From: Methylophaga sp.
Lineage (GTDB): Bacteria; Pseudomonadota; Gammaproteobacteria; Nitrosococcales; Methylophagaceae
Assembly: GCA_011053005.1 (NCBI GenBank)
Contig: DRHW01000004.1
Coordinates: 62,001 to 126,000, forward strand
Length of the DNA stretch: 64,000 nt
Reading direction: 5' to 3'
Part shown: in pieces, positions 35,177 to 37,231 of the stretch
How the letters are laid out: the number at the start of each line of letters is the position of its first letter
Position numbering within the stretch: the first letter of the stretch is position 1
Notes under the pieces: model-generated
What the model saw: the letters and a program-made list of their open reading frames with translations, nothing else
The model's database searches: none
What the model was told of the DNA's origin: nothing
Translations under genes and position numbers: made by a program

Positions 35177-35563
35177 ATGATTAAATCAATTGCTCACGCC
35201 AGCTTTTTAGTTGCTGATGTTGCTAAATCGTTAGAGTTTTATTGTGGTGTATTAGACATTCACTTGAATGAACATCGGCCAAACTTCCCATATGACGGTG
35301 CTTGGTTAGATCTTAATGCACAAGGTCAGCAGTTGCATTTAATGAAGCTACCTAATCCTGATTCGATAGATGGCCGTCCTGAACATGGTGGCAGAGACAA
35401 GCACGTTGCATTAGTGGTGGATGATTTAGATGCTTTGGCCGACAAGTTCGAATCTGCTGGCGTTGCATTCTCAAGAAGTAAGTCAGGTCGAGCTGCTTTC
35501 TTTTGTCGTGATCCTGATGGAAATGCGTTGGAATTTTCTGAAGATTTTACTCCTGCAAAATAG
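35177..35563 (+). CDS. VOC (glyoxalase/bleomycin-resistance) superfamily protein
   Basis: The 128-residue protein is a single vicinal-oxygen-chelate domain with two beta-alpha-beta-beta-beta modules. It opens SIAHASFLVADVAKSLEFYCGVLDIHLNEHRPNFPYDGAWLDL (in parts). Candidate metal ligands are the N-terminal His (IAHASF), a HLM histidine, DKHVALVV and the terminal glutamate in NALEFSED. Substrate is unknown. It has its own AAAAGGGG ribosome site and stands alone, followed by the long repeat-bearing gap. Confidence 0.87.
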   Translation: MIKSIAHASFLVADVAKSLEFYCGVLDIHLNEHRPNFPYDGAWLDLNAQGQQLHLMKLPNPDSIDGRPEHGGRDKHVALVVDDLDALADKFESAGVAFSRSKSGRAAFFCRDPDGNALEFSEDFTPAK

Positions 35564-35590
35564 CTACATTTTAAACTGAATTTACAGAGA

Positions 35591-35732
35591 TCAATGACTT
35601 AGCGAGTTACTCACACTATCTGTGGATAACTCTGTGGTTAACTTACGAAGAAATCGCTAAGTCATTAATCTGTAACAATCTCTATTATTTGGTTAAAAAT
35701 TAACCACCAATGAAATTTTGATATAAAACAAT
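35591..35732 (+). repeat. DnaA-box repeat, copy 1
   Basis: Arms AATGACTTAGCGA (35593-35605) and TCGCTAAGTCATT (35654-35666) form a perfect 13-bp inverted repeat. Between them lie TGTGGATAA (35621-35629, the exact complement of the DnaA box TTATCCACA) and a near-match TGTGGTTAA twelve bases later (35633-35641). A shared tail follows with TGTAACAATCT and the hairpin GGTTAA-AAA-TTAACC (35691-35705). The element aligns with the copy at 36101. Confidence 0.85.
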
Positions 35733-36100
35733 GGTTTAATGTCTTTAGTGTGATGGGTTATTAATTAACTCAACGCGGATAATACAAACTTTTGTGATGA
35801 ATATCAGAGTGTATAACTTACTTGATCTCCGACAAATGAATATTGCTTTAAGCTTTTTTTATGTTGATAAATAATAAAGATGACCTTCCGGTATAGATCT
35901 TAATTCAAGGTTTAAGTCAGCAAAGAAACAATAGATACCCGATGATTAATCTTGATGGCTGGCAACGGTAAAAATTGAGCAATCGCTCACTATTCTGCGG
36001 TCAGGTTTATTTTAAAACTAATCTAGTGTTCTCTTTTCAGCACACTATTAGCTTGAGTTATGCAAGATAAATCGGTTAATTTCAATCGAAAATATCACTA

Positions 36101-36242
36101 TCAATGACTTACAGACTTACTCACAATATCTGTGGATAACTCTGTGGGTAACATGCTGACAAATCGCTAAGTCATTATTTTGTAACAATCTACCTCTATT
36201 TGGTTAAAAATCAACCACGATCTAAATTGCTATAAAAATCAT
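36101..36242 (+). repeat. DnaA-box repeat, copy 2
   Basis: This copy aligns without gaps to copy 1 over the first 90 bases at a shift of 510, with roughly a dozen mismatches, and continues through GGTTAAAAAT after a one-base indel. It keeps TGTGGATAA (36131-36139), a near-match TGTGGGTAA (36143-36151) and the right arm TCGCTAAGTCATT (36164-36176). The left arm is mutated (AATGACTTACAGA). Confidence 0.85.
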
Positions 36243-36269
36243 ATAGATAGATTGCTTTTTAATGCTATC

Positions 36270-36282
36270 AATGACTTAGCGA
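36270..36282 (+). repeat. Third isolated arm of the DnaA-box repeat
   Basis: An exact AATGACTTAGCGA arm, preceded by the same TC, occurs 94 bases after the right arm of copy 2 and can pair with it. The bases after it (TTATTGTGGACTT) only loosely resemble the DnaA-box core, so this may be a truncated third copy. Confidence 0.65.
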
Positions 36283-36358
36283 CGACTGTTATTGTGGACT
36301 TGCACTGACGTTCCTAAATGGTGCATAACTTTGTTAGCTTACTAACAGATTACTCAGT

Positions 36359-37231
36359 TTATTGTCTAGATAATGCTGGAAATTGTTTATCATCATGTGC
36401 CGCATCTTCTTCACCCGTTGGAGCGAGACGGTGTGATTCAAGATCTTTGAAATTAAATAATTCATTATCAGCCATTTGTGACGGTGCAATATTTTGAAAA
36501 CTACGGAAAATATTTTCTAAACGACCAGGTTGTTGTTTTTCCCAGCCTTGCAACATGTCTTTAATGACTTGTCGTTGTAAATTTTCTTGTGAGCCACATA
36601 AATTACAAGGAATGATTGGGAATTGTTCATGATTAGAGTAGCGAATAATGTCAGCTTCTTTGCAATAAGCGAGCGGACGAATCAAAATATTTGTTTTGTC
36701 ATCACTCAATAATTTTGGCGGCATGGCTTTAAGTTTGCTGCCGTAAAACATATTAAGAAAAGCCGTTTCAATAATATCATCGCGGTGATGACCTAAGGCG
36801 ATTTTAGTAATGCCGTTTTGACGAGCATAACCATAAAGTGAACCACGACGTAGGCGTGAGCAAATACCACAAGTCGTTTTACCTTCAGGCACGACTTCTT
36901 TAACAATGCTGTAGGTATCTTTTTCAATAATATGAAAGGGCACACCGATCGAAGCTAAATATTCTGGTAAAACATGTTCAGGATAGCCGGGCTGTTTTTG
37001 ATCAAGATTAACCGCGATGATATCGAACTTAATCGGCGCATGCTTTTGTAAGTTCATTAAAATATCGAGCATGGTGTAGCTATCTTTGCCGCCTGACAGG
37101 CAAACCATAACCTTGTCGCCATCTTCAATCATATTGTAATCAGCAATTGCTTGACCGACATTACGACGCAGACGTTTGCGTAATTTATTAATTTCGAGGG
37201 TTTGTTTGGCTGTTGAAGCTAGTTCTGACAT
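36359..37231 (-). CDS. ttcA: tRNA 2-thiocytidine-32 synthetase TtcA
   Basis: TtcA is an iron-sulfur ATPase that thiolates cytidine 32 in certain tRNAs. The 290-residue protein has the PP-loop SGGKDS after MVCL, the two cysteine motifs [10 protein letters not shown] and CNLCGSQ that hold the cluster and sulfur chemistry, and the [17 protein letters not shown] segment. Length is normal with a slightly extended acidic tail. moeA follows upstream in transcription; its stop is directly adjacent, so ttcA is the last gene of a mobAB-moeA-ttcA run. Confidence 0.95.

Follow-up and report, generated by a model that had tools for sequence, protein, structure and literature searches.

What is the function of two directly repeated copies of a sequence with DnaA boxes, located in an intergenic region of Methylophaga sp.? 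The window, i.e. the whole 64-kb stretch of DNA that was analysed, contains a 795-bp intergenic region (35564..36358; from the open reading frames and its length) between two convergent genes, a VOC gene (35177-35563, + strand; glyoxalase-like) and ttcA (36359-37231, - strand), gene names being assigned by recognising the translations and not from a family search. The initial annotation had reported a same-orientation repeat at a distance of 510 bases, and this repeat is real: two direct copies of 129 nt each, at 35590..35718 and 36100..36228 (both + strand), are 510 nt apart from start to start and 77% identical. The 19-mer TCTGTGGATAACTCTGTGG has two exact occurrences in the 64-kb window, with 0.02 expected (up to three mismatches allowed).

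Each copy contains a core of three DnaA boxes, which comprises box I (TTACTCACA, + strand), 5 bp, box II (TGTGGATAA, - strand), 3 bp, and box III (TGTGG(T/G)TAA, - strand); in both copies, box I is oriented against boxes II and III. Box II is a perfect DnaA box (TTATCCACA; 35621-35629 and 36131-36139), and box III, starting 12 bases further on, has one mismatch (TTAACCACA, 35633..35641, with TGTGGTTAA at 35633; TTACCCACA, 36143..36151, with TGTGGGTAA at 36143). Both of these boxes had been annotated correctly, and the actual number per copy is three; the overlooked box I (35607..35615 and 36117..36125, + strand) was found by scanning 9-mers with up to two mismatches on both strands.

Also overlooked were inverted arms that surround the core (AATGACTTAGCGA and TCGCTAAGTCATT, the right arm of copy 1 at 35651..35671, - strand), and consensus sites for Fis and IHF. 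A perfect Fis consensus (GGTTAAAAATTAACC, 35691..35705) is found 49 bp after core 1, at a conserved position, and perfect IHF consensus sites (TATCAATGACTTA, + strand) are found upstream of core 2 (36099..36111), where the site is the left arm, and at +114 from core 2 (36266..36278) as a lone third arm; the end of the interval given in the initial annotation (36267-36282) is this downstream IHF site. Sites with one mismatch comprise an IHF-like site upstream of core 1 (GATCAATGACTTA, compared to WATCAANNNNTTR; 35589..35601, + strand; the left inverted-repeat arm), an IHF-like site at +84 from core 1 (AAACAATGGTTTA, 35726..35738, + strand), and a Fis-like site at +50 from core 2 (GGTTAAAAATCAACC, 36202..36216). 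The consensus strings were taken from PMC4245941 and PMC4585315; that for Fis is loose (1.8 perfect matches per kb of window, both strands), whereas the fixed position of the site is not.

No match was obtained when E. coli chromosomes were searched with the window element, and the cores of the E. coli DARS sites were therefore compared directly. A core scan of strain MG1655 gave TTATCCACT-attcc-TGTGGATAA-cca-TGTGTATTA for DARS1 (bioD/uvrB) and TTATTCACC-ttttc-TGTGGATAG-agt-TGTGAAGAA for DARS2 (ygdT/mutH), the latter lying within the segment bounded by the deletion primers given in PMC4585315. DARS1 and DARS2 share a box I opposite to boxes II and III at equal spacing, and a head-to-head contact of DnaA on boxes I and II is a prominent DARS feature (PMC5742627). 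The window copies have this three-box core with an opposing box I, and the 5- and 3-bp spacing of DARS1 and DARS2. The likeness to DARS1 thus consists of an identical core grammar and spacing; in contrast, the neighbours in Methylophagaceae are not bioD and uvrB, and no Fis or IHF consensus was found behind DARS1 at +50 or +85 by consensus scan. In several other loci, Rheinheimera among them, such a core is found ~1.5-1.9 kb upstream of uvrB. The likeness to DARS2 also includes sites for IHF and Fis that follow box III, in the window copies at the consensus level only, and an intergenic, chromosomal position between oriC and the terminus (with distances from complete relatives, the Methylophaga sp. 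genome being a draft). The order is core-IHF-Fis in E. coli DARS2, with mutH as neighbour (in the same scan, IHF ~60-75 bp and Fis ~110 bp after the core), and core-Fis-IHF in Methylophaga, with VOC and ttcA as neighbours and Fis at +50; further differences to DARS2 are the tandem duplication, a box I of the form TTACYCACA, and the extra upstream IHF-like site at the ttcA locus.

We consider each copy to be a DARS-type DnaA-reactivating site, at a probability of about 0.8, because the order, orientation and 5/3 spacing of the boxes equal those of the DARS1 and DARS2 cores, and because of the synteny, the fixed Fis and IHF positions, the spacer specificity, the genes for DnaA, Fis and IHF, and the location on opposite replichores described below. 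Points against this assignment are the deviation in box I, the swapped order of Fis and IHF, loci that are not orthologous to those of DARS1 and DARS2, and the loose Fis consensus. The element is filed as a DARS variant of the order core-Fis-IHF with recurrent tandem duplication, rather than as orthologous to either of the two E. coli sites.

For nucleotide exchange on DnaA, the initiator protein of chromosome replication, and for protein binding and timing at the element we infer the following mechanism. ADP-DnaA would bind head to head on boxes I and II, with box III occupied behind box II, and contact between the AAA+ domains of the bound DnaA would loosen the ADP; Fis (at ~+50) and IHF (at ~+85 and ~+114, and, at the ttcA locus only, just upstream) would bend the DNA and might make the site respond to growth phase and cell cycle, as they do at E. 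coli DARS2. Competition between ATP-DnaA and Fis for low-affinity DnaA boxes is known from E. coli (PMC8682772). The halves of the Fis-site palindrome resemble such boxes (TTAACCA), and a feedback through competition of ATP-DnaA with Fis at the Methylophaga site may be speculated upon by analogy.

The function of DARS sites has been established in E. coli, and the literature consulted here describes the sites as conserved in gammaproteobacteria similar to E. coli. DARS-like sites outside the enterobacteria are already known for V. cholerae (PMC6090056) and Shewanella (PMC8682772, Fig. 8); the published descriptions treat these as homologues of the E. coli sites. No report of DARS in Methylophaga, Legionella or Pseudomonas and no report of the core-Fis-IHF order was found in the literature searched; the founding paper of 2009 may hold an earlier mention of either.

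The draft genome of Methylophaga sp. (2.89 Mb, 44 contigs) was searched for further copies. Strong matches to the element were the two window copies and one other only (C3:17888-17949); by their cores, the copies comprise the VOC/ttcA pair, one copy at cobO/clpA, and a weaker one elsewhere. A looser core search added C8:21648 (one mismatch) and a weak core on contig C10 that overlaps an open frame, and among the low-score matches inspected on contigs C3, C10, C5 and C26, C5:151530 is part of the putative oriC region (see below) and that on C26 is a lone arm. An element match was obtained in 39 of 59 genomes searched (including that of Methylophaga sp.), nearly all of them in the Methylophagaceae; the named relatives with the element are Methylophaga species. 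All 60 core loci retrieved from Methylophagaceae relatives are syntenic, next to VOC/DMT/TtcA (type A, to which the window pair belongs) or ClpA/CobO (type B). The copies are thus few and at fixed orthologous loci, and not many at non-orthologous places as in a dispersed repeat. A third locus (type C) has the same layout and is triplicated at ~184-bp spacing in two relatives (G034:C3:1519609-1520010 and G411:C1:237430-237831; loci L375 and L370), near a methylated-DNA methyltransferase-like gene. In Methylophaga sp. 41_12_T18 (L380, G032:C16:10000-29900), six DARS-like cores in one orientation, several with a Fis-like site, are found within 18 kb (at 1158, 3599, 4897, 5427, 7284 and 18342).

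The two type A copies in one genome are 0.69-0.85 identical; in some clades each copy is nearer to its counterpart in a sister genome than to its tandem partner, and at locus L070 both copies are closest to each other. Because of this range of identity, the clade-wise pairing and the exception at L070, the type A tandem duplication probably happened more than once. The right arm TCGCTAAGTCATT (35651-35671 and 36161-36176 in the window) is strongly conserved after type A cores and matches neither the Fis nor the IHF consensus.

The specificity of the spacers was examined in 369 genomes of the class. The pattern TTAYNCACA-5-TGTGGATAA-3-TGTGNNTAA was present in 35 of these, four of which are family members (Methylophaga sp. 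included); a version with the first spacer widened to 8 bp, and the core pattern reversed, were each found in none of the 369, and 38.4 Mb of sequence generated from a Markov model of the window did not contain the strict three-box core. Within the family, 47 nonredundant type A and 33 type B elements were compared. Box II is invariant in all of them and box I is nearly always TTACNCACA; with few exceptions in the family, it departs from the R-box at position 4, where C replaces T. A perfect Fis consensus within 100 bp downstream is found in 34 of 47 type A and 29 of 33 type B elements (~2 in shuffled sequences), positioned at +49 to +51 and almost always at +50, and a perfect downstream IHF consensus in 31 of 47 and 23 of 33 (0.4 in shuffles), mostly at +84/85 and +113/114. 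The upstream IHF-like site at -18 (at most one mismatch) is present in 42 of 47 type A elements; the arm is absent from type B (cobO/clpA).

Outside the family, 44 nonredundant loci were collected by their core from Alcanivorax, Rheinheimera, Halopseudomonas, Methylococcales, Legionellales, Nitrosomonadales and others. Because these loci were found by the core, the core itself is no independent evidence there; the flanking Fis and IHF sites are. IHF sites at +83 to +87 with at most one mismatch were found in 38 of 44 loci (shuffles, 0.25), and Fis sites at +49 to +52 in 29 of 44 with at most one mismatch (shuffles, 2.2) and in 11 of 44 as perfect matches (shuffles, 0.15); all shuffle controls are single-base shuffles, and kinship among the sequences is ignored in these counts. 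DARS-type sites with this order of helper sites most likely occur at fixed loci in the methanol-consuming Methylophagaceae, and in many bacteria outside the family, as judged from these sequence patterns.

For the location of the origin, GC skew was computed from sampled stretches. In relative G034, the sampled skew minimum (342-380 kb) coincides with priA (C3:361307). In the Methylophaga sp. genome, the skew changes sign on contig C5 near 148-151 kb, where clusters of DnaA boxes flank priA; each of the two clusters (argS-priA and priA-folA; G000:C5:148803-151556, L005 and L308) contains three perfect boxes in the order -, +, +. Similar DnaA-box clusters adjoin priA in three complete relatives, and dnaA is ~140 kb away from the priA-flanking clusters. 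The region C5:148803-151556 beside priA is thus likely to be the oriC of this lineage, on a contig other than that of the window. With priA taken as the origin, sites A and B occupy opposite replichores in the three complete relatives, 474-1250 kb from priA; DARS1 and DARS2 of E. coli are likewise on opposite replichores with respect to the established position of E. coli oriC. In three Methylococcales loci (L132, L183 and L188; Methylobacter, Methylomonas and Methylomicrobium), a core is located directly beside priA, with few further boxes nearby.

The genome also encodes the candidate partner proteins. The DnaA of Methylophaga sp. is 60% identical to that of E. coli, and R227, D269, R285 and L290 as well as the tested DNA-contact residues are kept; published work describes R227, D269 and L290 as important for DARS activity. 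Furthermore, Fis (51% identical), IhfA (above the curated cut-off) and a Hda-like protein are encoded.

The initial annotation had proposed a role in DnaA-related replication control for conserved boxes away from a standard oriC, which is retained here; its specific candidates, a datA-type titration site, an origin or a mobile repeat that spreads boxes, are not. A datA-like site, whose boxes would titrate DnaA or, together with IHF, stimulate the hydrolysis of DnaA-bound ATP, is unlikely. It would agree with the intergenic position, the high-affinity box II, the IHF sites, and the larger number of boxes provided by tandem copies; however, datA is defined as a box cluster in which an IHF site separates boxes 2 and 3 and has the opposite effect on the nucleotide state of DnaA (PMC4585315), no DARS core is described for it, and the window copies have a three-box core whose boxes are not interrupted by an IHF consensus. 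The DARS grammar with its conserved head-to-head pair, strict spacing and Fis site, and the lack of a datA-like cluster, argue against this alternative, and plain titration would need neither fixed spacing nor fixed orientation. DnaA, Fis and IHF act on promoters in other bacteria, and the element might accordingly serve transcription, as a promoter region under DnaA control or as a signal of another kind; this is quite improbable, as convergent genes flank each of the three loci in this genome (A, B and C) and promoter-like sites are fewer than in shuffled sequences. A structured RNA was rejected with no Rfam match.

A mobile or dispersed repeat (MITE- or REP-like) in which the DnaA boxes are incidental would explain the inverted arms around the core, the recurrent local duplication, and the six cores within 18 kb in one relative. 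It was rejected on the whole-genome search and synteny, and is very improbable: the copies are few per genome and orthologous across the family, and the left arm is an IHF-like site that is missing from the cobO/clpA type. Replication origins such as oriC also carry DnaA boxes with IHF and Fis sites, yet a second or main origin at the VOC/ttcA site is extremely improbable. No skew sign change was found on the stretches of the window contig that were read, and a dense box cluster with a skew switch is located at priA instead (C5:148803-151556), as is the minimum in G034; the sites in complete relatives are 0.47-1.25 Mb from priA. GC skew and DnaA-box clusters thus led to the rejection of an origin.

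With the copies read as DARS-type sites, the odds are about even that the core-Fis-IHF layout (Fis at ~+50, IHF at ~+85) is widespread in Gamma- and part of the Betaproteobacteria, with the DARS2 order being derived or an alternative, and that tandem duplication tunes the supply of ATP-DnaA. If a layout with swapped helper sites is conserved across lineages, the recharging of DnaA by DNA sites would be old and general; a sequence rule for finding DARS sites in other lineages would be available, and it could be asked which features of the geometry of the DARS2 complex matter. The DARS box grammar (5/3) was also observed on 55-kb IncP-like plasmids of E. coli (L091 and L092, position 4001), where the boxes are located beside and downstream of trfA, presumably in oriV.
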